Shown here in pieces: positions 30,528 to 55,270 of a stretch of DNA of 55,348 nucleotides. The position numbers and the translations under genes are program-made. Source of the stretch: Dehalococcoidia bacterium (GTDB taxonomy: Bacteria > Chloroflexota > Dehalococcoidia > Dehalococcoidales > W111). The stretch is from contig DUEU01000071.1 in assembly GCA_011191985.1 (NCBI GenBank), positions 1-55,348 on the forward strand, read 5' to 3'. Position 1 is the first letter of the stretch; every line of letters begins with the position of its first letter. Under the pieces are notes generated by a model. It saw only the letters and a list, made by a program, of their open reading frames with translations. It was not told the DNA's origin and made no database searches.

Positions 30528-31208
30528 CTAACCTGTTCGCCTTATTTTTAAACGTTTGATACTTGTCTCCAAAGATTTCAGGCCAGCACCCTGAGCGGTC
30601 AAGAGCACATACAATACGGTGAAAGCGGCAATACAAACCACCAATGTCATGAGCATTGGCGCTGTGATGCCGTCAGTAAAGATGATGGTAGTCGGATGCT
30701 GGGTCCGCCAGACGTTTACCGTCAGAAAAACGATGGGGACATCGATGAAGCCCACGATACCCACCACGGCTCCGAACCTGGCACCGCGGGCCGGCTCGGT
30801 GGCATACCCGCGCACCAGAAGATAGGCAATATATGTCAGCCAGAGCACCAAGGACGTCGTCAGGCGGGCATCCCACGTCCACCAGATTCCCCAGGCCGTT
30901 TTCGCCCAGATAGGGCCGGTAATCAAGACCAGGGTGGTAAAGACAACGCCAACTTCTGCCGAAGCGTGGGCAATATAATCCCACTTCAACAGCCGTTTAC
31001 GGAGATAACAGATACTGAAGACAAAGGTGACCAGAAATGCCAGAAAGCTGACCCAGGCCAGGGAAACATGAAAATAGAATATACGCTGCACGATCCCCAT
31101 AGATTTCTCGGTTGGCACATACATGAAGACCATATAGAGGGCGGCTATCATCAGCGCCAGTCCCAGCCCGAACAACAGGTTATTTATAAGATTACGCCTT
31201 CCGTTCAT
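30528..31208 (-). CDS. ccmC: Heme exporter/handling protein CcmC
   Basis: 226 residues with six membrane helices and the tryptophan-rich WWD motif GIWWTWDARLTTSLVLWL, which presents heme to CcmE on the outer face of the membrane. Flanking histidines (YFHVSLAW and a C-terminal TQHP) are the expected heme ligands. I chose ATG 31208 (MNGRRNLINN); the longer frame to 31286 overlaps ccmB. It lies 25 bases after ccmB. Confidence 0.93.
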   Translation of the reverse strand: MNGRRNLINNLLFGLGLALMIAALYMVFMYVPTEKSMGIVQRIFYFHVSLAWVSFLAFLVTFVFSICYLRKRLLKWDYIAHASAEVGVVFTTLVLITGPIWAKTAWGIWWTWDARLTTSLVLWLTYIAYLLVRGYATEPARGARFGAVVGIVGFIDVPIVFLTVNVWRTQHPTTIIFTDGITAPMLMTLVVCIAAFTVLYVLLTAQGAGLKSLETSIKRLKIRRTG

Positions 31209-31233
31209 AAGGGGCTCTTCTTCTTGGTGATTT

Positions 31234-31905
31234 TTACTCCTCAACAACAAAATCGAAAACCAGCGTGGATACGACGAGGTAAACAATGTCGAAGGCTATC
31301 ATTATTTGCAGCCATGTTAGCATATCTGACCACGACTTGTCGGCCAGCACCACCGCCGTAGCCCGCACCGCCGCAACCACCACTGGAACGACGACCGGCA
31401 AAAAGAGGACCGGCAGCATAATATCCCGCGCCCGCGTGTTTATGGCCACCGCCGAGAACAGAGTGCCCACCGCCGCAAAGCCGAGAGAGGCCAGCCCGAT
31501 TACAAGTAGCAGCCGGGGTAAAAAGAGGGGCAGGTTAAAAAGGGCGAGAAAGATAGGGGTAATGATAATGGCCACAACCATGGTGAAGGTGAAGCTGCCC
31601 GCGAGCTTACCCCAGTAAATAACAGCCCGGTCCACCGGACAAAGCATTAGTCCTTCCAGACGGGAATTTTCCTTCTCCACGGCAAAGGTATGATTGAAGC
31701 CAAGCACCCCACCGAAGGTTAACGCCGCCCACAGGATACCGGGGGCAACCAGCTCGGCCGTATCAATCCTGGTGCTAAAGGCAAAGCTGAAAATCACCAC
31801 CACCAGCAGGGAAAAGACCAGCACCGAGGTCACGACCTCCCTGGCCCTGAGCTCCGTAAGGATATCCTTCCAGAAAATGGTGATTATTCTGGCAAAAGTG
31901 CTCAT
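31234..31905 (-). CDS. ccmB: Heme exporter membrane subunit CcmB
   Basis: 223 residues with six predicted membrane helices. It is the permease partner of CcmA in the ABC complex that, with CcmC, loads heme onto CcmE. FWKDILTELRAREVVTSVLVFSL and the conserved VEKENSRLEGLMLCPVDR are recognisable CcmB sequence. The gene starts 3 bases after the end of ccmA and is clearly in the same operon. Confidence 0.93.
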   Translation of the reverse strand: MSTFARIITIFWKDILTELRAREVVTSVLVFSLLVVVIFSFAFSTRIDTAELVAPGILWAALTFGGVLGFNHTFAVEKENSRLEGLMLCPVDRAVIYWGKLAGSFTFTMVVAIIITPIFLALFNLPLFLPRLLLVIGLASLGFAAVGTLFSAVAINTRARDIMLPVLFLPVVVPVVVAAVRATAVVLADKSWSDMLTWLQIMIAFDIVYLVVSTLVFDFVVEE

Positions 31906-31908
31906 AAC

Positions 31909-32655
31909 CTAGCCCGTCTCCGTGCACTGATTATAGACCTGCCTGAAGAGCGTGGTGTCTATATCATGTCTGGATGCCCGATAGGCGACTTTGCCTTTAT
32001 TAAGGATGACGATACTATCACCCAGTTCCAGGCCTCGCTCCAGATTATGGGTGACCATCACCACGGTAAGACCATCGCCACCGGCATTGCCCATTACATC
32101 ATTTATAACGGTGCTGGCCTGAGGGTCAAGACCAGCCTCCGGCTCATCGAGTAACATTATTGACGGCCTGTGGAGAGCCGCCCGGGCAAGGGAAGCCCTC
32201 TGCTGCAAACCGTGTGATAGGGTGCCGACCCGGTCATGCCGTCGGTCCACAAGCTGCATCCAAGACATTACCTCTTGAATCCGCTGTTCCAAATTCGCGA
32301 TACCGTACATCTGGCTATAGAATTTAAGGTTCTCGTAAACGGTAAGGTTATCATAGAGAAAGGTCTGATGACCAACCAGACCTATCTTACGCCTCACCTG
32401 GGCCGGTTTATCACGTATGTTTACGCCATCCAGCCATACGTTGCCGGAGGACGGCCTGACTAGCATAGACAGTATCTTGACCAGCGTCGTCTTACCTGCC
32501 CCATTGGGCCCAAAGATGACCAGCCGCTCGCCCCGGCCAACCTGCAGGTCAATACCACGCAGGGCTGGATGGTAGCCGAACGATTTGGTCAGCCCTTGAA
32601 CCTCTATAGCCCAGGAGAAAGGGGATCGAGCATTCTCACTCACGGCTATTTCCAC
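31909..32655 (-). CDS. ccmA: Cytochrome c biogenesis ATPase CcmA
   Basis: 248 residues. An ABC ATPase with Walker A GPNGAGKTT, Q-loop VGHQTFLYDNLTV, signature LSHGLQQRASLARA, Walker B IMLLDEPEAGLD and H-loop VTHN. ATP hydrolysis by CcmAB releases holo-CcmE. The GTG start overlaps the end of the preceding unknown gene by 20 bases; GTG 32643 is an alternative that would shorten the overlap. Confidence 0.93.
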   Translation of the reverse strand: MEIAVSENARSPFSWAIEVQGLTKSFGYHPALRGIDLQVGRGERLVIFGPNGAGKTTLVKILSMLVRPSSGNVWLDGVNIRDKPAQVRRKIGLVGHQTFLYDNLTVYENLKFYSQMYGIANLEQRIQEVMSWMQLVDRRHDRVGTLSHGLQQRASLARAALHRPSIMLLDEPEAGLDPQASTVINDVMGNAGGDGLTVVMVTHNLERGLELGDSIVILNKGKVAYRASRHDIDTTLFRQVYNQCTETG

Positions 32656-33601
32656 CCCTTCTTCTTCTCACTAGGTAAGTGATAATACCAGCGATTATCA
32701 CCACAACCACTACCCAGAAAAATACCAAAGACATACTGCTATCAGTCGGTAAATAAGAAAAGCTTAAGTGTATCACGGTGTCACGGGGGAGATTGTCGCC
32801 CCGGAAGTGCAGGAAACGCTCACCGGCGTCAGTAATTACTGGCTCAGCCGGGGCCAGCTTATCCGTAGCCACCTCTATCCCCTCACTGGCTACCAGGAAC
32901 TCGAAATTATCCGTAGGATAGTTGATTTTCAGGGGAATAGCTATCTCATTTGAATCCGGCCCAGCCAGCCGGTAAGAGTAGACAAGCTGTCTTTCCCCCG
33001 GGGGAAACGGCACAAGATAGCTGACCGTATTGTCGTCCAGGAACTGGTAGTCCGGCATCAGTTCTGGCGGGGCCTCAAAGCCGGCCGCGCCCTCGGGTAG
33101 ATTAAAAACCAGCCCGCCTCCTGTCTCGACATATGTCCGGTCTCCGTCATTGACTAGCCAGAGAACCTCGGTCACCAGCAGGCCCTCTTCCTCTAAAGTG
33201 ATAATAACATGGGCCAGGCCAACCCTTATCGCCTCATCACTGTTAGTAGCATCACAGACCCAGACCTCCAAATATGCCGTCGCCTCTCCTGATTCAAAAG
33301 CCACCGGGTAGTAGTAATCAACCTCCATGTATTTCGCCGAGACCAGATAGGTATGCTCCACGGCAACATTGTCAAACCGGAACTTACCTTCCTGATCGGT
33401 CCTGGTAGTTCTTGTTGCCGTCATCACATCTTCAACGTATGTAATCAAGATAACCTCTATTTCAGCTACGCTGCCACCACCTTCAGTGCCGTTGATTACT
33501 TGCCCATCGATTACCCCGACAGAAGGTCCCTGAGCAAGGGCGGTCACCGGTAAAATGACCATCAGCGAAACGAAAATGACAGCAATAATAATACGATGCA
33601 T
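32636..33601 (-). CDS. Unknown secreted, membrane-anchored protein inside the ccm operon
   Basis: 321 residues. A signal peptide (about 1-24, ending ALAQG) precedes a beta-rich region resembling carboxypeptidase-regulatory/Ig-like domains (VINGTEGGGSVAEIEVIL, TRTDQEGKFRFDNVAVEHTYLVSAKY). A second domain of unknown family follows, with a C-terminal membrane helix (about 292-312) and a basic tail RRRRGG. It is wedged between ccmF and ccmA with close spacing. It has no CXXC motif, so it is not CcmG or CcmH. It may be an extracytoplasmic scaffold for apocytochrome or heme handling; that role is inferred only from position. Confidence 0.85.
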   Translation of the reverse strand: MHRIIIAVIFVSLMVILPVTALAQGPSVGVIDGQVINGTEGGGSVAEIEVILITYVEDVMTATRTTRTDQEGKFRFDNVAVEHTYLVSAKYMEVDYYYPVAFESGEATAYLEVWVCDATNSDEAIRVGLAHVIITLEEEGLLVTEVLWLVNDGDRTYVETGGGLVFNLPEGAAGFEAPPELMPDYQFLDDNTVSYLVPFPPGERQLVYSYRLAGPDSNEIAIPLKINYPTDNFEFLVASEGIEVATDKLAPAEPVITDAGERFLHFRGDNLPRDTVIHLSFSYLPTDSSMSLVFFWVVVVVIIAGIITYLVRRRRGGNSRE

Positions 33602-33604
33602 AAT

Positions 33605-35563
33605 CTATACTCTATCCCGATATAGCTGCCTGTCCTCGGCTAAAAAGGCGACCGCTCCCCCCAGCAGGAAGAAACCTCCCCCCACCCACATCCAGACAAT
33701 CAACGGGTTCACCAAAACCCGGAAGGTAGCTGATTTATCCCCGGGGTCAAAACCGGTCCAGACCAGAGAGACGAATAGGTCCTCGGCCGGTGTGCTGCGT
33801 ACTGCTACTTCGGCAAAGTGGTCATCGTGCCGGAACCAGTAATCATAGCTTGGCTGCATAACGCCCACCGGACGGCCATTACGACTTGCCGACAGGGAGG
33901 CAATGGCCCTCGCTCTCACGTTGTCCTGTCTGAATATCAGTTCATCATAGGTTAATTCATATTTGCCAATATTCATAGTCTCGCCAATATCAAGGGTCGC
34001 CGTCCTCTCAATGTTATAGAAAGAGGAAACGATAATGCCGAGGGTAATGAGAATTATACCGATATGGGCCAGAAAACCACCGTACCTCGCCCGGTTGCTG
34101 CCAATCAGGAAAAGGAAGGCCAGGAAGTGGTTCTCCCCCCTGGCCCGGTGACGGGCCCTGGTGCCCCGGTACCACTCTTGCAGCACGATAAAAAGCGGAA
34201 AGCTGCATACCATCATCACCGCAATATACCAGTTGCCAATCCCGAAAACCAGAATAGCGATGGTAATTACCAGTACGGCCAGCAAAAAATAGCCGGCATT
34301 TCGCTCCGCTGGACTCCAGACCGCTTTCCCCCACCCCAGCAGCGGGCAAACTCCAGTAAAGAACACCAGGACGAGCATAACCGGCCCACAGGTCCGGTCA
34401 AAGAAGCTGCGGTCTAGCGTTATCCTCACCCCCGCCACGGCCTCAATTACCCGCGGCAGCACCGTTCCCGCCAGGATAATGAATGCCAGGACTACTAGGA
34501 TAACATTGGTCAGCAGAAAAGCGCCCTCTTTTGAGACGAGTGACGCCGGTTTTTCCTCATTCCCTGAATCCCGGTGGCGATATAATAACCACGACGAACC
34601 GACCAGCGTAATCAGAATGGCCGCCAGGATGTACGGCGGAAAGGTCGAGCCGTAAAAGCCATGCAGGGGCGACTCAATGCCACCGTGGGTGATAAAGGGG
34701 CTAAGCAGGGTCAATGCGAAAGTGAAAACAATAAGAAGCCGGCTCCAGGTAACCAGGTAACGCCGCCGCCTTCGCATCGCCATCGAGTGTATAAAGGCGG
34801 TCCCCACCAGCCAGGGCATCAGCCCGGCATTCTCTACGGGATCCCACGCCCAGTACCCGCCCCAGCCGAGCTCATTGTAAGACCACCACATCCCCAGTAA
34901 ATTGCCTACCCCCAGGGTACACCAGGCAAAGATTGCCCAGCGTCTGACCACCGCGCCCCACTCGGCACCGGCGCGACGGGTGATGAGCGCCGCCATGCTC
35001 AGGGCGAAGACAACGGCAAAGCCAGCGAAGCCCAGATACAGCAAAGGGGGATGAACTAGCATACCGAAATTCTGCAGTAGCGGATTCAGGCCAAAACCTT
35101 CGGCCACCGGTGATGGCTGTTTTTCAAATACGTTTACTACCAGTGTGATCAGGGCAATGAAAAATACCTGCACTACTGCCAGGATAGTAAGAGCATAATA
35201 CTTAACCTGCCGGTGAAAACCCTGTTTCTGGAAAGCCAGGACAGCCGTAAAAAGCGAGACCAACCATCCCCAGAAGAACATGGAGCCGGCCTTGTCGGCA
35301 TATAGAGCGCTCAATGTGTAGGCAGCGTTCAGGTCCCGGCTGACATGCTCGACGACAATTCTTAGGCTGAAATCCCTGGTGAAAAAGGCGTATATAATAA
35401 CTGCCAGTGCCAGCGTGAACAGGCCGAAGAGAACGTATATGCTATTTCGGGCAATGGTTGTTGGCCACCCCGGCCCAATCCTGGCACCAATGGCTGAGGC
35501 TGTTGCCGCGAGTATTGCTACCGGGAGAGCCATAATTAAGGCGATATGTCCTATTTCCGTCAT
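33605..35563 (-). CDS. ccmF: Heme lyase CcmF
   Basis: 652 residues with about 14-15 membrane helices, the typical CcmF length. It has the WWD motif GGYWAWDPVENAGLMPWL and the conserved SLFTAVLAFQKQG-like early helices and HPPLLYLGF. It transfers heme from CcmE to apocytochrome c. The C-terminal extracytoplasmic loop (ATLDIGETMNIGKYELTYDEL) is also typical. It follows ccmE by 9 bases. No CcmG, CcmH or CcmI gene is present in the operon. Confidence 0.95.
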   Translation of the reverse strand: MTEIGHIALIMALPVAILAATASAIGARIGPGWPTTIARNSIYVLFGLFTLALAVIIYAFFTRDFSLRIVVEHVSRDLNAAYTLSALYADKAGSMFFWGWLVSLFTAVLAFQKQGFHRQVKYYALTILAVVQVFFIALITLVVNVFEKQPSPVAEGFGLNPLLQNFGMLVHPPLLYLGFAGFAVVFALSMAALITRRAGAEWGAVVRRWAIFAWCTLGVGNLLGMWWSYNELGWGGYWAWDPVENAGLMPWLVGTAFIHSMAMRRRRRYLVTWSRLLIVFTFALTLLSPFITHGGIESPLHGFYGSTFPPYILAAILITLVGSSWLLYRHRDSGNEEKPASLVSKEGAFLLTNVILVVLAFIILAGTVLPRVIEAVAGVRITLDRSFFDRTCGPVMLVLVFFTGVCPLLGWGKAVWSPAERNAGYFLLAVLVITIAILVFGIGNWYIAVMMVCSFPLFIVLQEWYRGTRARHRARGENHFLAFLFLIGSNRARYGGFLAHIGIILITLGIIVSSFYNIERTATLDIGETMNIGKYELTYDELIFRQDNVRARAIASLSASRNGRPVGVMQPSYDYWFRHDDHFAEVAVRSTPAEDLFVSLVWTGFDPGDKSATFRVLVNPLIVWMWVGGGFFLLGGAVAFLAEDRQLYRDRV

Positions 35564-35572
35564 CGATAAGAA

Positions 35573-35956
35573 CTATTCTACGGGTTCGTACTTGGAGGGG
35601 CATTTCATTATAATTTGACTTGCCCGAAATACCCCGTCGGGGTGACCCTTTCCCTCAACCAGTATGTTAGAACCGACCTTAAACCCGCTGGGCTTGGCAC
35701 CCTGGTAAATCACCGGCAAGTTACGGCCACCTTCAGTGATGTCGAACCTGAGCTCGAGGTCGGCAGCATTCCAGTCAACCGGACTATCCGCTATCTTACC
35801 AGCTACCCTAACGTTGGTATCATGGAACTCGCTACCGCTCTCTAAAAACTCGCTCACCGTTAGATAGTAACTTACCGAACTACCAAAACTGAGGTAGAGA
35901 AGATAACCCACCACCAGTATAAGGATTACCCCCCCAATTAAATACTTCTTTTTCAT
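35573..35956 (-). CDS. ccmE: Cytochrome c maturation heme chaperone CcmE, CXXXY type
   Basis: 127 residues: an N-terminal anchor (about 5-24) and an OB-fold. Classical CcmE binds heme covalently through the histidine of HXXXY. Here the C-terminal motif is CPSKY, the CXXXY variant known from sulfate reducers, archaea and some Gram-positives. That variant usually goes with ccm operons lacking CcmH, as here. First gene of the operon. The best promoter would start transcription only about 6 bases before its ATG, so the message may be nearly leaderless. Confidence 0.92.
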   Translation of the reverse strand: MKKKYLIGGVILILVVGYLLYLSFGSSVSYYLTVSEFLESGSEFHDTNVRVAGKIADSPVDWNAADLELRFDITEGGRNLPVIYQGAKPSGFKVGSNILVEGKGHPDGVFRASQIIMKCPSKYEPVE

Positions 35957-36107: not shown

Positions 36108-36289
36108 TCACCGTTGGAATGTTATGCGGTTTTACGGTAGCCTCCTACGCTTCTACCCTATTAGCCCTGTTTCATATTTATCCACCTACTGGCTCAGCCT
36201 GGCAGCATCTAAATGATTGTGTCCGCCAGTGCTCCGGCCAGTGTTCATATACATTATTATAAATCGCACAGTAACAAGGAGGATAATTA

Positions 36290-37297
36290 ATGCGAGTAAG
36301 ACTATGGCCCGGTGTGGTAACCATTGTCGTCCTGCTGGCACTACTGGTATCAATTCCATTGCTCAGCGCCTGTGGTGGACCAAGTGAGACGCCAACTACC
36401 CCGACCACACCAACCACTCCAACAACACCGACCACTCCACCGACAGCAGAAGAATCCGAATTTGACGTAGTGCAGGATGCCGTGGCGGACTACCTGACCC
36501 ACATGGCTCAGCACATAAAGGCTTCCGATTTACACATGATGATAGTTGAAGGCGATGCTCCATACATCGTCAGTACGCAAAGCGCGGAAAATTATGCCAA
36601 GGGAAATATTCCCGGGGCAATTAATATCGCATTCAGCGAACTGACCACACTCCCCAAGGATGAGGAGATTCTCCTATATTGCGATTCAGGTCAGGTAGCT
36701 TCCTTCGGAGCGGTAGTACTCGGTGTTCTGGGCTATGATGTCAATAATCTAAAACACGGGATAGCCGGCTGGACTTCGGACCCGAGCATTGCCACGGCAC
36801 AGTTCGACCCGGAGAAACACCAGTCTGATTTCCAAACGGAGACCACGGCCAACGCTGGTTCGACCTATGACTACCCGGATATTGACAACACTACCTCAAC
36901 CGATACTGATGACATCATAGAGGCTGCAGTGGCAACGATATCGGCTAAATTTATCCTGGCAACTGATTTGAACATGAAGATTGCTGAAGGCGAGGACATG
37001 ACTGTCCTGGACATTCGCAAGGCGGAGTATTATGCCGCCGGGCACATTCCCGGTGCCATAAACTTCGGGATAAGCAAACTGGTCGAGAACCTGAACAAAC
37101 TTGACCCGGATGCACCAGTCTACGTATACTGCGATACTGGACACTGGGCGGCGGAGGCAGCGGCTCTACTGCAAGCGCTGGGGTATGACGCCTGGAGCCT
37201 CAAATACGGCATCTGCTCCTGGTCACCAGATGAGGCAATCAATAATGGCCTGTGCTACGATGCCGCCAGTATCCCGAATTACGAGTTGGAAAAATAG
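36290..37297 (+). CDS. Lipoprotein with two rhodanese-like domains
   Basis: 335 residues. A lipoprotein signal (lipobox LLSAC) is followed by a Thr/Pro linker (residues about 34-51) and two rhodanese-like domains. Domain 1 has an active-loop cysteine in YCDSGQVAS and domain 2 in YCDTGHWAA. Rhodaneses move sulfane sulfur as a cysteine persulfide. The loops lack the arginine of common CRTGxR rhodaneses, and domain 1 lacks the aspartate of the DVR motif (IVSTQSAENY), whereas domain 2 has LDIRKAEYYAAGHIPGAI. It would face outside, tethered to the membrane. SD AAGGAGG, ATG 36290. It precedes the multiheme cytochrome and is probably in the same operon. Confidence 0.92.
   Translation: MRVRLWPGVVTIVVLLALLVSIPLLSACGGPSETPTTPTTPTTPTTPTTPPTAEESEFDVVQDAVADYLTHMAQHIKASDLHMMIVEGDAPYIVSTQSAENYAKGNIPGAINIAFSELTTLPKDEEILLYCDSGQVASFGAVVLGVLGYDVNNLKHGIAGWTSDPSIATAQFDPEKHQSDFQTETTANAGSTYDYPDIDNTTSTDTDDIIEAAVATISAKFILATDLNMKIAEGEDMTVLDIRKAEYYAAGHIPGAINFGISKLVENLNKLDPDAPVYVYCDTGHWAAEAAALLQALGYDAWSLKYGICSWSPDEAINNGLCYDAASIPNYELEK
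36389..36442 (+). repeat. In-frame 9-base (Thr-Pro-Thr) coding repeat
   Basis: Eighteen codons encoding repeated TPT units form the flexible spacer after the lipidation site of the rhodanese lipoprotein. Codon usage varies between units, so it is an old or selected repeat rather than a fresh expansion. Confidence 0.85.
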
Positions 37298-37409: not shown

Positions 37410-38729
37410 ATGAAGCGACCGATATTAGCAGTGGCAGCGGCAATATTGGTGCTGTTTGTAATTGCCGCCTTTGGCTGTACGGAAGGAGAACCGGCGGTAA
37501 CCCCCGTAGAAGGGGAGGTAGTCGCCAGCTCCTGTGTAAGCTGCCACAGCGATAAAGACCTGCTTAAGGCAGTAGCTTCACCGGAACCAGAAGAGGCCGT
37601 GTCTGAGGCCACCACGGGCGAAGGCTGAGGGGGAGAGTTGCCTCCGTTGGAGGCATGGGAAAAGGTCTTCCTGGGTGATGCCGATTTCATGGAGAGCACC
37701 CACGGCAAGGTGGGTTGCGTTATCTGTCATGGTGGCGACAGCAGTATAGCAGACAAGGAACTGGCCCATACCGGGCTGTTAGCCGACCCTTCCGACATCA
37801 GTTGTGATACCTGTCACCAGGATATTGACGAGAAGCATGATTTCAGTCTCCATGCCACCCTCGGTGGCTTTCAGTCGGTTCTTGAAGCCAGGGGTGGTAA
37901 TCTGGAAGAGGGCTCCCCACTGGCCACGGCCTTTGAGAATCACTGCCAGCAGTGCCACACCTCCTGTGGTCAGTGCCACGTCAGTCGGCCGGATGAGACG
38001 GGCGGGGGACTGGTCTCGGACCATGAGTTCCGCCCTACTCCCTCGATGCAGTATAACTGTGTAGCCTGCCACGGCTCACGTGTTGGCGATGAATACCTCG
38101 GCAATAACGAGGGAATCCCAGCCGATGTCCACTGGACGCAGGCAACAATGACTTGCGCCAAATGCCACAGCCAGGAACTGCACGGCTCCAGCCAATCCGC
38201 AGCTACCCGATACCAGAATTCAAATGTCGTAAAATGTGAAGACTGCCATGAGGAAGTCTGGACAAACACGGAGGGTAATCCCCAGCATGAGCAGCACCTG
38301 AGCGACCTTCAATGCCAGGTGTGCCACTCTGTAGCCTATAAGAACTGCTACGGCTGTCATGTTGCTTTTGATGAGGAGGGGCTACCCTGCCGTACCAGTG
38401 AACCTTCCCAGATAGACTTTGAAATCGGCTACAATCCGCTGCGGTCCTCGGAGCGTCCCTACAAGTACGTAGTATTACGCCACGTACCTACTTGCCTGGG
38501 CACCTGTGACTACTATGGCGCCAACCTATTGCCAGACTTCAATGCCTTACCAACCTGGAAGTACGCCACGCCGCATAACATTCAGCTCAACACCCCACAA
38601 AATGAAAGCTGTGACGCCTGTCATGGCAACATTGACCTGTTCTTAACCGAAGATGACGTCCGCCCCGAGGAGAGAGAGCCCAATAAGGATGTCATTGTGA
38701 CCGGTAATCCTTATACGCCGGAGGAATAA
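37410..38729 (+). CDS. 11-heme lipoprotein cytochrome c with an in-frame UGA, probable selenocysteine
   Basis: 439 residues if UGA 37626-37628 is read as selenocysteine (U73). The start ATG 37410 follows GGAG with 6 bases. The N-terminus is a lipoprotein signal with lipobox AFGC (C23), then a first heme site CVSCH and TTGEG-U-GGELPPL. Ten more CXXCH sites follow: CVICH, CDTCH, CQQCH, CGQCH, CVACH, CAKCH, CEDCH, CQVCH, CYGCH and CDACH. The frame is unbroken across the UGA. The downstream part alone has no signal peptide, so its hemes could not be attached; this argues for read-through. A SECIS-like hairpin follows the UGA, and formate dehydrogenase in this window also uses UGA. Downstream Fe-S and cytochrome b genes complete a membrane complex. 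A recent nonsense mutation or sequencing error is the alternative. Confidence 0.85.
37626..37628 (+). other. In-frame UGA, predicted selenocysteine codon of the multiheme cytochrome
   Basis: TGA lies between codons for TTGEG and GGELPPL, within one continuous frame from the lipoprotein signal to the last heme. The only alternative initiation just after it is TTG 37638, whose nearest purine tract is two bases away. No second stop occurs before 38727. Confidence 0.78.
37629..37655 (+). promoter_or_regulatory. SECIS-like hairpin after the cytochrome UGA
   Basis: A perfect 7-bp stem TGCCTCC (37639-37645) / GGAGGCA (37649-37655) closes a 3-base loop GTT. The loop starts with G and lies 17 bases after the UGA. 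This fits the general bacterial SECIS description (short stem, G in the first loop positions, about 16-37 bases from the UGA). The formate dehydrogenase element has the same 7-bp stem and 3-base loop. Confidence 0.68.
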
Positions 38730-38736
38730 CCAGGGC

Positions 38737-39654
38737 ATGGAGCTAAGTCGAAGGAAATTTTTAAAAGCCTCCGCCTGTGCCGCTGGTGCTGCCGGTCTGC
38801 TGTTACTTAAGCCAGCAACCTCGGTCCTAGCCAGCGATTCACAGACTCGAGAAGGCATGGCCATGCTGGTGGATGTTACCAAATGCGTCAGTTGCTGGTG
38901 GTGCTACGCCGCCTGTAAAAATTACAACAGGCTACCGGAGACTATCAAACCCGACCCGGCAGACCCGCCCCCGCTTTCCCCTAAGGTCTGGACGACTCTG
39001 AAACCGATAAAGAAGGGTAATGAGTGGCATTCCCGAAAACAGGCGTGTAACCACTGCACTGATGCCGCCTGTGTTGCGGTCTGCCCCACCGGAGCGCTGA
39101 GCTACAACCATCAGGGTTTCGTCCAGTACGATAAGGAGAAATGCTCCGGCTGCGGGTATTGCGCCGAGTTCTGTCCCTTCGGGGTGCCGCAAATGGAGAG
39201 CAACCGGCTTACCGGGGTCGCTATCATGAACAAGTGCACTTTCTGCCAAGACCGGGTGGCCAATGGTGAGCAACCCGCCTGTGCCGAAGCCTGTCCCACG
39301 GGGGCAATCAAATTTGGCCAACGTTCAGAACTGGTGACGGAGGGACGGGGAAAAACAGCAGACCTGAGAAAGACAAATCCCGATGCGACCTTCTACGGAG
39401 ACAAAGAGCTAGACGGCCTGCACGTGATGTATGTGCTTGATGATGCACCGGCAGTATACGGTCTGCCCGCGGAACCTGAAGTCGCGGCGGCTACTTCAGT
39501 GCGAGACGTACTTCAATGGGTAGGAGCCGGCGCCACCGTCGCCGTAATTCTCGGCTTCGGTCTCAACTATATTGTCGCCCGCGAAGCAATGATGACCAGC
39601 CGTCTACCCGGGAAAGAGTATATGCGCAAGAGTAAAATTGAAGGCAAGCAATGA
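38737..39654 (+). CDS. Tat-exported four-cluster Fe-S subunit with C-terminal membrane helix (FdnH/HybA-like)
   Basis: 305 residues. The N-terminal Tat signal SRRKFLKASACAAGAAG is followed by ferredoxin motifs for four [4Fe-4S] clusters, including CVSCWWCYAACK, CTDAACVAVCP, CSGCGYCAEFCPFG and CTFCQDRVANGEQPACAEACP. A C-terminal membrane helix (about 257-277) resembles that of formate dehydrogenase beta subunits. It usually links a molybdenum catalytic subunit to a cytochrome b; here no such subunit is present and the multiheme cytochrome takes that place. It lies 7 bases after the cytochrome gene and overlaps the next gene (ATGA). Confidence 0.93.
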   Translation: MELSRRKFLKASACAAGAAGLLLLKPATSVLASDSQTREGMAMLVDVTKCVSCWWCYAACKNYNRLPETIKPDPADPPPLSPKVWTTLKPIKKGNEWHSRKQACNHCTDAACVAVCPTGALSYNHQGFVQYDKEKCSGCGYCAEFCPFGVPQMESNRLTGVAIMNKCTFCQDRVANGEQPACAEACPTGAIKFGQRSELVTEGRGKTADLRKTNPDATFYGDKELDGLHVMYVLDDAPAVYGLPAEPEVAAATSVRDVLQWVGAGATVAVILGFGLNYIVAREAMMTSRLPGKEYMRKSKIEGKQ

Positions 39655-40298
39655 CTGAACCGCGAGTAGTGGAGCGTTTCAAGAAGAGGACCATCTGGTT
39701 TCACTGGATTCATACTACCGCCTTCCTGGCGCTGATAGTGACCGGGGCAATTCTGTTCTTCCCGGGGCTCGGCGCTCCTGCCGCTGGCGGCCTGACCAGA
39801 CTTATTCACCGCATTGCGGCGGCACTCTTCGTGGCGGCACCAGTAATATACGCTGTGTTCAACCCGAGAATGACGCTGCATTTCATCAAGGAGACCCTGA
39901 CATGGGGCATAGACGACTTTGGCTGGGCAGAAGCCGCCCCGCTCTACTACTTCGGTGGTGGGGAGGAAAAGATGCCCCCGCAGGGACATGTAAATACCGG
40001 CCAGAAGATGTGGCAGGTTATCGTACTGGGCACTGGCGTTTTATTCTTTATAAGCGGCTTAATAATGTGGTTTTTCAAAGGAACGGTTACTACAGAAGTC
40101 TTTCAGTGGTGCGTTATTGTTCATGACGTTGCCTTTATCCTGGCCTTCCTCATGCTGCTGGTACATATCTACACCGGCGTCATTCATCCCCGGATGACTG
40201 AGTCGCTTCGTTCAATGTGGGACGGCAGAGTTTCCAAAACTTATGCCCGGCACCACTATGGCAAGTGGTATGATGAGACTTCGGCCGGTGACAAGTAG
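39651..40298 (+). CDS. Cytochrome b subunit (formate dehydrogenase gamma-like)
   Basis: 215 residues with four membrane helices. It is of the FdnI/cytochrome b561 type, with histidines in WFHWIHTTAFLAL, LIHRIAAALF and VHDVAFILAFLMLLVHIYTG positioned to bind two b hemes across the membrane. It would exchange electrons between menaquinone and the Fe-S subunit, connecting the extracytoplasmic cytochrome to the quinone pool. The start overlaps the Fe-S gene stop. Confidence 0.92.
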   Translation: MTEPRVVERFKKRTIWFHWIHTTAFLALIVTGAILFFPGLGAPAAGGLTRLIHRIAAALFVAAPVIYAVFNPRMTLHFIKETLTWGIDDFGWAEAAPLYYFGGGEEKMPPQGHVNTGQKMWQVIVLGTGVLFFISGLIMWFFKGTVTTEVFQWCVIVHDVAFILAFLMLLVHIYTGVIHPRMTESLRSMWDGRVSKTYARHHYGKWYDETSAGDK

Positions 40299-52125: not shown

Positions 52126-52237
52126 TGTTGACAAAGCCGTACGAGAATTAATTAAAATAAGTGGAGAGTGGCATGCACGGTTTTTCGGTGTCTCTAGGTG
52201 ATAGCCTTCTGCCTCAGTGGAAAGGAGGAGACTACTT

Positions 52238-55200
52238 GTGGAACTAAACCGCAGAGATTTTTTAAAGCTGTCAGGAATAGGTACCGGTGCCGCTGTAGCT
52301 TTTAGTCTCCTTCCCTATACAGCGGCATTTGCTGCCCCCAGAGAGTTCCCTCTAAAGAGAAAGGTCAAAGAGACCAGCACCGTCTGCTGCTACTGCTCTG
52401 TTGGCTGCGGAGCAATTGTAACGGCATATGAGGATGGAATCATCAAGATTGAGGGGGACCCCGACCATCCCATCAATGAGGGTGCGTTATGTCCCAAGGG
52501 GCAGGCTATGGCTCAGATTCACCAAGTTAATGGTGAGCCCAACCAGTACCGGCTTACTAAACCTCTGTATCGGGCGCCAAACGCCGAAGACTGGGAAGAA
52601 AAGTCGTGGGACTGGATGATAGAGACAATCGCTAGAAGGGTTAAGAATACCCGTGATAATAACTGGAACAATTCGGCGAACCGGACCGATGCCATTGCCA
52701 GCCTGGGCGGTGGCGAGCTGGATAATGAAGAGTGTTATCTGCTGACTAAGATGAACCGTGCCCTCGGCGTTGTGTATTTAGAGCACTGTGCCCGTATCTG
52801 ACATTCCTCTACAGTTGCGGCTCTGGCAGAGTCGTTCGGTAGGGGAGCAATGACCAACCATTATATTGACCTTAGAAATGCCGACTGTGTGATGATTATT
52901 GGCTCCAATGCAGCCGAGAACCATCCCATATCATTCAAATGGATTACCAGGGCGATGGAGAAGGGGGCCAAGCTTATCAACGTTGATCCGCGCTTCACTC
53001 GCACCTCTTCCAAGGCAGATATCTATGCGCCAATAAGGTCTGGTACCGATATCGCCTTTATCGGTGGCATAATAAACTACGTGCTTAATGACATGGAGAA
53101 AAATCCCGGTAACTACAATATGGAATATGTGAAGCAGTATACCAATGCCGCTCTTATTATCAATCCTGAGTTTACTTTCAATAACGGGCTATTCGGAGAA
53201 ATAAGTAGTGGTAATTATACTGCTGCTTCAAAGAACACCTGGAAATATGCCGATACAAAAGCGCCAGCCGCTGACCTGACTTTAAAAGACCCCAATTGTG
53301 TCTTCCAGTTGATGAAAAAGCATTACTCACGCTATGACGTGGATACAGTATGTAATATTACTGGTACCCCTAAGAATGTTTACCTGGAGGTTATCAAGGC
53401 CTATACGGCAACAGGTAAAAAGGGTAAGGCAGGTACTATTTGTTATGCCATGGGCACCACCCAGCACACTTATGGCACCCAGAATATCAGAAGCTATGCC
53501 ATACTCCAGCTTCTGCTGGCCAACATGGGTGTTGCCGGTGGTGGCATAAATGCCCTGCGGGGCACATCCAATGTGCAGGGCTCCACTGATATGTGCCTGC
53601 TGTCTCATATCCTGCCCGGTTATCTCAATGTACCGGTTGAAAGCGACACTGATCTTGAAACATACCTGAAGCGAAGTGATAAGCACCCTGATGTCACCAT
53701 CACACCTCAAGGCCTGGCTGGTGATACCAGTTCTAACTGGTGGGGCAACGCCAAGAAGTACACAGTCAGCTTGCTCAAGGCCTGGTATGGTGATGCTGCT
53801 ACCAAGGACAATGAATTTTGCTTCAATTACCTGCCCAGAGTTGACTCCAAGGTAAACTACACCCATATCGGGATGTTTGAGGCCATGGGGCAGGGCAAAA
53901 TCAAGGGACTCTGGGTCTGGGGGCAAAATCCAGCAGCGGGAGGTCCTAATTCTAACGGGGAGCGGGAAGCACTGGCAAAGCTGGATTGGCTTGTTGCCGC
54001 CGACATATGGATGAACGAGACCTCTGAGTTCTGGAAGAGACCCGGCGTAAATCCGTCTGACATCAATACCGAGGTATTTATTTTACCGGCAGCCTGCTCC
54101 TATGAAAAGGAGGGGAGCATCAGTAACAGTGGGCGCTGGGCACAGTGGCGCTACAAGGCAGTGGAACCCCCAGGGGAAGCCATGGCCGACCTGGAGATTA
54201 TGAACCTCGTTATGCTGAAGCTGAAAGAGCTTTATCAGGCAGAAAGCACCCCCCAAGCCAGGCCAATCATGGACTTGGACTGGAATTATGGGGAGCATAT
54301 TACTGCTGATGCCGTGGCAAGAGAGGTCAATGGCTATGACCTGACCACCGGTAAGCTGGTCGCCAGCTTCGCGGCATTGAAGGACGACGGCACTACCACG
54401 TCCGGTAACTGGCTATACTGCAACCAGTACTCTGAAGAAGAAGGCAACAAATGCGCCAGACGTGGCATGGTGGATTCACATCCCCGGCAGATCGGGCTTT
54501 ATTCTAACTGGTCATGGTGCTGGCCGTTAAACCGGCGCATTATTTACAACCGGGCATCCGTTGACCTTAATGGGATACCCTGGGATGGTGAGCGACCTGT
54601 TATCCTTTATGACAGTGCGACAAAGAAGTGGGAAGGTGATGTTCCCGATGGCGGCTGGCCACCCATTAATAAAGCGGAAACTGGAGCAAAATATCTACCC
54701 TTTATCATGAAGCCGGAAGGCGTAGCACGACTCTGGGGCTATGGCCGTGTCGAGGGACCGCTGCCCGAAGCCTATGAGCCGTGGGAAAGCCCGTTAGATA
54801 AGAACCTGATGTCTGGAACCAAGACTAATCCTTGTGCTTTTATCGGCACTTACATGAATGAGCGGGGCACGCCGGATAAATATCCTTGTGTGGGCACTAC
54901 TTATCGCTGCACCGAGCACTGGCAGACCGGTATCATGACCCGGAACCTCCCCTGGCTGGTGGAACTCATGCCCAATATGTATGTAGAGATGGACGAGGAA
55001 CTGGCTGCCGACAAGGGTATTAAAGGTGGCGATAATGTCGTGGTGAGTTCGGCGCGAGGGGAAATCAGCGCTGTGGCGGTAGTCACCAGGCGCTTCCGAC
55101 CGCTGCGAGTGGATGGGCAGACCATCCATCACATAGGCGTAATCTGGCACTTCGGTTACAGCGGCATGGCGAAGGGTGATAGTGGCAACATCCTTACTCC

Positions 55201-55270
55201 GCATGTTGGTGATGCCAACACGACCATTCCGGAATACAAGACATTCCTGTGCAATGTGAGGAGGGCATAA
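52238..55270 (+). CDS. fdhA: Formate dehydrogenase catalytic subunit, selenocysteine-containing
   Basis: 1010 residues with UGA 52799-52801 read as selenocysteine (U188), close to E. coli FdnG (1015 residues, U196). A Tat signal (NRRDFLKLSG) is followed by the [4Fe-4S] motif C50-x2-C53-x3-C57 and C85. The context HCARI-U-HSSTVAALAESFGRGAMTNH matches the FdnG/FdoG selenocysteine site. The molybdenum/tungsten bis-pterin domain continues to the C-terminus. It oxidises formate or reduces CO2 on the outer side of the membrane. I chose GTG 52238, which follows GGAGGAG by 7 bases and begins immediately before the Tat motif. The next gene is its Fe-S subunit. Confidence 0.94.
52799..52801 (+). other. 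In-frame UGA, selenocysteine codon of formate dehydrogenase
   Basis: TGA between ARI and HSSTVAAL at the exact catalytic position of selenocysteine formate dehydrogenases. The frame continues for another 822 sense codons. Confidence 0.93.
52802..52834 (+). promoter_or_regulatory. SECIS-like hairpin of formate dehydrogenase
   Basis: A 7-bp stem CGGCTCT (52818-52824) / AGAGTCG (52828-52834), one G-T pair, closes loop GGC. The loop begins 24 bases after the UGA. G occupies the first two loop positions, as expected for bacterial SECIS elements. Confidence 0.7.

Follow-up and report, generated by a model that had tools for sequence, protein, structure and literature searches.

We analysed a 55,348-nt stretch of DNA from a Dehalococcoidia bacterium (contig DUEU01000071.1 of assembly GCA_011191985.1), which we call the window; its parent assembly is designated G000. 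The window holds a gene for a c-type cytochrome whose single 439-residue frame begins at an ATG, preceded by GGAG at a distance of 6 nt, ends at a TAA stop codon (38727–38729) and is interrupted only by one in-frame TGA (Table 1). One CXXCH motif lies before the TGA and 10 lie after it, for a total of 11, exactly as an earlier sequence-only reading of this DNA had described. By eye, we likewise agree with its placement of a lipoprotein signal at the N-terminus, where a lipobox-like Cys is found at residue 23, and with its statement that the part downstream of the UGA has no export signal of its own. Most of the relatives listed also have a hydrophobic N-terminus when their start codons are chosen by a rough rule.

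The codon interrupting the frame corresponds to residue 73 and falls in a glycine-rich GEG-U-GG loop between hemes 1 and 2, matching the earlier placement of a selenocysteine (Sec) in TTGEG-U-GGELPPL and outside the heme motifs. Residues C42, C45 and H46 of the first heme motif are invariant across 48 aligned sequences, while ten histidines outside the motifs are kept at 90% or more in the cytochrome alignment, for eleven hemes. No partner Cys or Sec is present in the GEG-U-GG loop of the aligned sequences. An Rfam scan of the window gave no match at gathering cut-offs, and a tRNA search of the window found none.

Table 1. Features of the cytochrome locus and its surroundings in the window, with the SelB gene found on another contig (C59) of the same assembly
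Feature	Position	Strand	Basis or remark
Cytochrome c maturation genes CcmC, CcmB, CcmA-like ABC protein, CcmF, CcmE	30528..35956	-	
Lipoprotein-type protein (signal by eye) with two rhodanese domains	36290..37297	+	Pfam PF00581, E 6e-31, two stretches
Predicted Sec-containing 11-heme c-type cytochrome, UGA read through	37410..38729	+	Sequence and comparison
Signal peptide, lipobox-like AFGC, Cys23	37410..37478	+	By eye; N-termini of relatives
Heme motif 1 (CVSCH), upstream of UGA	37533..37547	+	C42, C45, H46 invariant
In-frame TGA, predicted Sec73 in GEG-U-GG	37626..37628	+	TGA in 61/66 readable sequences
Bacterial SECIS-type hairpin, 7 bp, loop GTT	37639..37655	+	Fold and covariation
Heme motifs 2 to 11 (CXXCH)	37716..38624	+	Residues 103, 132, 179, 186, 217, 249, 276, 302, 313, 401
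[4Fe-4S] ferredoxin subunit, FDH-beta/HybA-like	38737..39654	+	Twin-arginine start by eye
Membrane cytochrome b subunit, b561/FDH-gamma-like	39651..40298	+	
Fdh-alpha-like gene, internal TGA at 52799 in CARI-U-H	52205..55267	+	Hairpin loop GGC, 23 nt after TGA
SelB of G000	C59:49216-51078		Only SelB found; divergent

We determined how far the in-frame TGA is conserved by scanning genome contigs for relatives, which yielded 66 loci. The aligned codon at residue 73 could be read in 65 of them and in the window; one locus begins past the Sec site (L022), and another was dropped as a duplicate because it is the same contig as L019 (L002). Across these 66 readable sequences, the codon is TGA in 61, Cys in two (L042, TGT; L050, TGC), Trp in one (L031, TGG) and Leu in one (L033, TTG), while the last (L065) lacks the motif. 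L042 and L050 are close relatives and are therefore counted as one change to Cys. A further Cys occurs at the Sec position of the database protein P0337. Trp occupies the position in three relatives (L031, P0118 and P0327), likely as an easy one-base exit from Sec. According to their record titles, the loci come from Chloroflexi/Dehalococcoidia, Anaerolineae, Deltaproteobacteria, KSB1, Calditrichota, Gemmatimonadetes and others, although binning errors may account for some of these taxon labels, such as that of the Thorarchaeota bin L030. The search for Cys or UGA in homologues, which the sequence-only reading had named as a check, thus returned both, and a conserved in-frame UGA together with Cys in some homologues is the pattern expected of bacterial selenoprotein genes.

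We found that the TGA is followed by a hairpin with the sequence TGCCTCC-GTT-GGAGGCA, and that the spacing from TGA to loop is 17 nt, in agreement with the 7-bp, bacterial SECIS-like geometry claimed for it earlier. According to PMC13188914, a bacterial SECIS element has a loop of 3–9 nt, a stem of 4–16 bp, 16–37 nt between the UGA and the loop, and a G in the first two loop positions; the window's 3-nt loop, 7-bp stem and 17-nt spacing lie inside these bounds, and its loop GTT supplies the G. The hairpin is the minimum-free-energy fold (-11.5 kcal/mol), but taken alone it does not exceed chance (z = -1.80; 11 of 200 shuffled sequences fold as well). Because the window's hairpin is unremarkable by itself, the case for Sec rests on comparison.

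We therefore measured covariation in 58 of 62 TGA sequences (56 distinct), leaving out the duplicate L002 and three sequences with a shifted geometry (L074, L075 and L077). Standard base pairs fill 94.1% of pair cells, compared to 75.3% after shuffling, cells with changes on both sides number 49 rather than 9.3, and the covariation score is 0.467 rather than 0.137; in each case, none of 500 shuffles was as high. The number of pairs with any double change is 6, compared to 3.9 in shuffles (14 of 500 as high). When the partner strand is slid by 1–3 columns, pairing falls to 42–53%. Without being supplied a structure, RNAalifold recovered the six innermost pairs, all of which show compensatory changes.

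A constraint on the protein could also shape these columns, and we separated it from a constraint on the RNA by re-drawing synonymous codons according to each gene's own usage. The mean number of pairs formed over the 61 TGA sequences is 6.43 of 7, compared to an expected 3.94, and all seven pairs form at the site in 38 of the 61, compared to 0.14% of 20850 windows elsewhere in the same genes. The loop reads GTT in 51 of these sequences, GGT in eight, GGC in one and AGT in one, a tally that includes L074, L075 and L077, whose hairpins are shifted so that the bases counted are not their loops. In the non-TGA copies, the number of pairs is 7 (L031), 7 (L042), 6 (L033), 5 (L050) and 0 (L065), with a mean synonymous expectation of 3.26. 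Since the Trp-bearing L031 and the Cys-bearing L042 keep all seven pairs, loss of Sec has not always been followed by loss of the hairpin.

The conserved TGA, the Cys in relatives, the co-varying hairpin and the presence of SelA in most of the carriers tested together support the proposal that this is a multiheme cytochrome with selenocysteine, and we regard the reading of the UGA at 37626 as Sec as nearly certain and by far the best available. Decoding as another amino acid, for example the Trp that replaces Sec in L031, P0118 and P0327, is very improbable and was rejected given that L042, L050 and P0337 have Cys there, that the hairpin co-varies and that most carriers tested have SelA; moreover, a TGA (39652–39654) ends the next gene, encoding the FeS subunit, where it overlaps the ATG at 39651.

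That the UGA is instead a true stop, a sequencing error or the mark of a pseudogene, with two separate products, would agree with two observations: nearly all database gene calls among the best listed start past the UGA, and SelA was not found in the window's own assembly. At E up to 0.001, two protein database searches returned 2319 and 1046 proteins, sets that overlap and include general CXXCH matches, and we examined the best 120 of each. The main alignment begins past the Sec position in 119 of the 120 best relatives of the window protein (86 starting at or after residue 74, and 33 starting at residue 77 or later with secondary CXXCH matches), the exception being P0118, and in 118 of the 120 best relatives of a Desulfobacula homologue. 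Such starts are what would result from gene callers stopping at the UGA, with some alignments also cut by short contigs. The best relatives are mis-annotated, having lost the signal, the first heme and the Sec. A number of the truncated copies carry the JGI label thiosulfate/3-mercaptopyruvate sulfurtransferase, perhaps because of rhodanese fusions.

A stop, error or pseudogene is hardly credible, and was rejected, when 61 of 66 sequences carry TGA at one and the same codon, when no separate signal is seen by eye in the downstream part, and when selection, where measurable, acts on both sides of the codon. The dN/dS ratio is 0.01–0.27 upstream of the TGA (five of nine comparisons with estimable dS) and 0.06–0.09 downstream (three of nine), with dS largely saturated; where dS is estimable, both halves of the gene are under purifying selection.

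We next considered whether the carriers could make Sec. SelA is found over its cut-off in 41 of 48 genomes, comprising 37 of 43 TGA carriers and four of five non-TGA carriers. The TGA carriers lacking SelA over the cut-off are G000, G091, G101, G104, G064 and G084, and the genome of the Cys-bearing L042 lacks it as well. As SelA fails to separate TGA from non-TGA carriers, these counts indicate no more than a capacity for Sec synthesis in most TGA carriers.

The relative G022, whose TGA homologue is 72% identical to the window cytochrome, has its genes for tRNA-Sec, SelB, SelA and a SelD-like AIRS-domain protein together within 8.5 kb on a single contig. In the window's own assembly, which is 95% complete in 97 contigs, the expectation of Sec machinery was borne out for SelB but not for SelA, SelD or tRNA-Sec, none of which reached its cut-off. 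The SelB of G000 scores 393 bits, has the SelB winged-helix domains, and is 40–45% identical to the SelB of eight of the nine other carriers searched. No SelA lies within 9 kb before or 5 kb after it, and none was found elsewhere in the assembly. SelD matches are far below the cut-off (44 compared to 125 bits); one, at the end of contig C57, was set aside as by eye a ThiL-type kinase, and the other, on contig C82, is also far below. The best tRNA-Sec match (42.5 compared to 47 bits, under stricter filters) is a tRNA-Ser.

The genes flanking the G022 sel island, a radical-SAM gene and purQ (named by eye), lie about 20 bp apart in G000 (end of C76). We therefore rejected the possibility that the sel genes fall into an assembly gap at the G022 position; the island is absent there rather than hidden, and we infer that G000 is an incomplete assembly with its sel locus placed elsewhere. 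The missing SelA, SelD and tRNA-Sec are the weakest point for Sec in the window strain. The argument of the sequence-only reading that formate dehydrogenase needs UGA decoded as Sec in this organism gains from three Fdh-alpha-like genes in G000, each with one TGA and one of them over the family cut-off: the gene with TGA at 52799, which is likely a second selenoprotein gene in the window, and two others.

We then examined the genes around the cytochrome. In the window, the neighbouring rhodanese protein has an active-loop Cys in both domains (CDSGQVA and CDTGHWA). The rhodanese gene contains a Thr-Pro repeat linker, and an antisense open reading frame with repeated VGV at 36178–36435 (-) is this linker read in reverse. 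A rhodanese match occurs in the flanks examined of 55 of 65 loci, usually adjoining the cytochrome and either upstream or downstream of it; the profile was iterated from a window seed, so its E-values are not independent, and Pfam confirms the rhodanese in the window, L016, L028, L040 and L074. In 56 of the 57 loci with a match (window and duplicate counted), one or more rhodanese domains carry the active-loop Cys; the exception, L047, is truncated where its contig ends.

Ten loci have no rhodanese match. Five of them (L020, L036, L051, L055 and L075) start 440 bp or less upstream of the site, three are non-TGA copies (L031, L033 and L065), and the other two, L043 and L046, carry TGA and are covered on both sides (for L046, with 1.9 kb downstream). 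The remaining non-TGA copies keep only pieces of rhodanese, in two frames in L042 and about the last quarter in L050, breaks that may come from assembly error. Thus, none of the five non-TGA copies has an intact rhodanese in the flanks examined. The loss or damage of rhodanese beside non-TGA copies ties Sec to a sulfur-transfer partner, here through only about four independent changes.

In six loci, the rhodanese and the cytochrome share one frame (L016, L028 and L074 by Pfam; L026, L027 and L030). The Actinomycetota-labelled L074 (L074:2102-5347) forms one continuous frame of 1082 residues when its UGA is read through, in which S-layer homology domains are followed by two rhodanese stretches and then the Sec cytochrome. 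Rhodanese is the usual partner of the GEG-U-GG cytochrome, a link that the earlier reading did not contain.

Other neighbours are more restricted. An FeS-subunit match occurs somewhere in 20 of 66 loci and a cytochrome b match in 10 of 66, so these partners are not general, and in the window's own lineage the two subunits are likely redox partners of the cytochrome. Relatives of CcmE and CcmF lie near the cytochrome in seven Dehalococcoidia loci (L014, L015, L017, L018, L019, L021 and L023). Within the window's own Ccm block, the ABC protein (31909–32655) is assigned only generally, and a further gene lies at 32636–33601.

On balance, we favour an exported Sec-containing eleven-heme cytochrome that works with a rhodanese as a chalcogen reductase as the best explanation overall. 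The chalcogen-reductase function itself is put forward more tentatively, as a possibility suggested by sequence and gene order. The signal peptide is predicted to export the cytochrome, so its site of action would lie outside the cytoplasmic membrane. There, the active-site Cys of the rhodanese would carry an atom of sulfane sulfur (or selenium) in persulfide form and pass it on to Sec73; the heme chain would then supply the electrons that cleave the resulting selenenyl-sulfide and set sulfide or selenide free. In the window's lineage, the downstream FeS and cytochrome b subunits could feed the hemes from the quinone pool. A glycine-rich Sec loop without a partner Cys, a competent-looking rhodanese Cys loop and a heme chain all fit such a transfer and reduction of chalcogen.

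With ten conserved non-motif histidines for eleven hemes, one heme may be without a His ligand and may lie at the Sec site. Such an open heme may be free for catalysis or ligated by Sec, and less conserved residues could also be ligands. Possible substrates include sulfane sulfur, thiosulfate, polysulfide, selenite and tellurite. The broadest form of the proposal, in which a widespread and uncatalogued family of exported Sec cytochromes takes chalcogen from rhodanese onto a Sec beside a His-free heme for respiratory reduction, is possible but doubtful.

Several alternatives would keep the Sec cytochrome while changing its role. The substrate could be selenite, tellurite or a metal, or the protein could belong to an extracellular electron conduit of the kind proposed for the Geobacter ext cluster, with the rhodanese handling selenium and not sulfane sulfur. 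The ExtKL cluster includes a rhodanese lipoprotein, ExtH, and loss of the neighbouring porin ExtI impairs selenite and tellurite reduction (PMC5877670, PMC6148476). The window protein (P0001), however, has no ExtKL match at E up to 10 and falls far below the cut-off on ExtM, ExtN and ExtO, and the Sec of ExtKL lies at a different place and in a different motif. We consider this alternative unlikely, though worth keeping in view.

A non-catalytic Sec, serving as a heme ligand or a structural electron-relay residue, would account for the ten conserved histidines outside CXXCH motifs for eleven hemes and for the missing partner Cys or Sec in the loop, but not for the five non-TGA copies without intact rhodanese in the flanks examined, and is improbable. 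Returning to the preferred chalcogen reductase, 10 of 18 ext cluster regions carry a different rhodanese-like protein (PMC6148476), and this second pairing of a Sec cytochrome with a rhodanese supports a functional link.

We compared the family with known systems. The earlier reading knew of no characterised Sec multiheme cytochrome of this type. A predicted precedent exists in ExtKL of Geobacter (NF040886, GSU2937-2936; PMC5877670), while the part of the claim that holds is that the GEG-U-GG family is a different one. ExtKL resembles the window cytochrome in being a multiheme c-type cytochrome with one predicted Sec, and its cluster contains, besides ExtH, an FeS protein and a b-type cytochrome (PMC5877670). 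Among 247 genomes drawn from the phylum of G061, 24 contain a match over the ExtKL cut-off, and we fetched twelve loci. In the seven of the twelve whose frame was obtained, five hemes come first and are followed by Sec in GH-x-[IF]PDG-U, 60–68 residues beyond the point where the last heme motif begins; in the window cytochrome, Sec instead lies between hemes 1 and 2 of eleven, in GEG-U-GG. The NF040886 model (cut-off 250 bits) gave no match at E up to 10 to P0001 and seven relatives, under HMMER filters that drop most matches above E of about 0.1, and nothing in 30 carrier genomes reached the ExtKL cut-off. Membership in ExtKL was therefore rejected on the model match, the Sec site, the motif and the heme count, and the GEG-U-GG family is separate.

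In Table 1 of PMC13188914, which lists 119 families, the only entries named as cytochromes are ExtKL and a Sec form of the octaheme TIGR04315. The latter, a tetrathionate-reductase-family octaheme cytochrome, is also a multiheme c-type protein with a Sec form in GenBank annotation (PMC13188914), but has eight hemes by name compared to eleven here. Membership was rejected because P0001 has no match to TIGR04315 (cut-off 375 bits) at E up to 10; the distant relative L074 matches it weakly (E 0.003). ExtM, ExtN, ExtO and the DmsE family (NF040943, NF040967, NF040968 and TIGR03508) give weak partial matches around CXXCH of 27–34 bits, compared to cut-offs of 192–800 bits, with the Sec loop outside the best-scoring stretches. 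The Sec formate dehydrogenase FdhA, present as a copy in the window, shares the type of recoding signal, a TGA and a hairpin, but is a molybdopterin enzyme and an unrelated protein. A profile search of solved structures gave partial CXXCH matches (E 4e-7 or weaker), and a fold search gave weak matches to octaheme proteins of the hydroxylamine-oxidoreductase type (PDB 6t5e, 4n4j and others; best Foldseek E 0.73), which may reflect shared heme packing only.

Sec multiheme cytochromes have thus been predicted before, and what appears to be new is the GEG-U-GG family and its rhodanese link. No description of the family was found in the open-access literature searched, an absence that is no proof in itself. 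The family is widespread, and appears to be an unlisted selenoprotein family that gene catalogues cut in two. It would add a selenoprotein family with Sec inside a heme chain; the other families with this setting to date are all predictions. Its usual rhodanese partner offers a direct and testable connection of selenium with sulfur transfer and with electron flow through multiheme proteins in uncultivated members of the Chloroflexi and deltaproteobacteria. If the proposal is true then, taken with ExtKL, a different protein that is also found by a rhodanese, evolution has twice joined a Sec cytochrome to a rhodanese.
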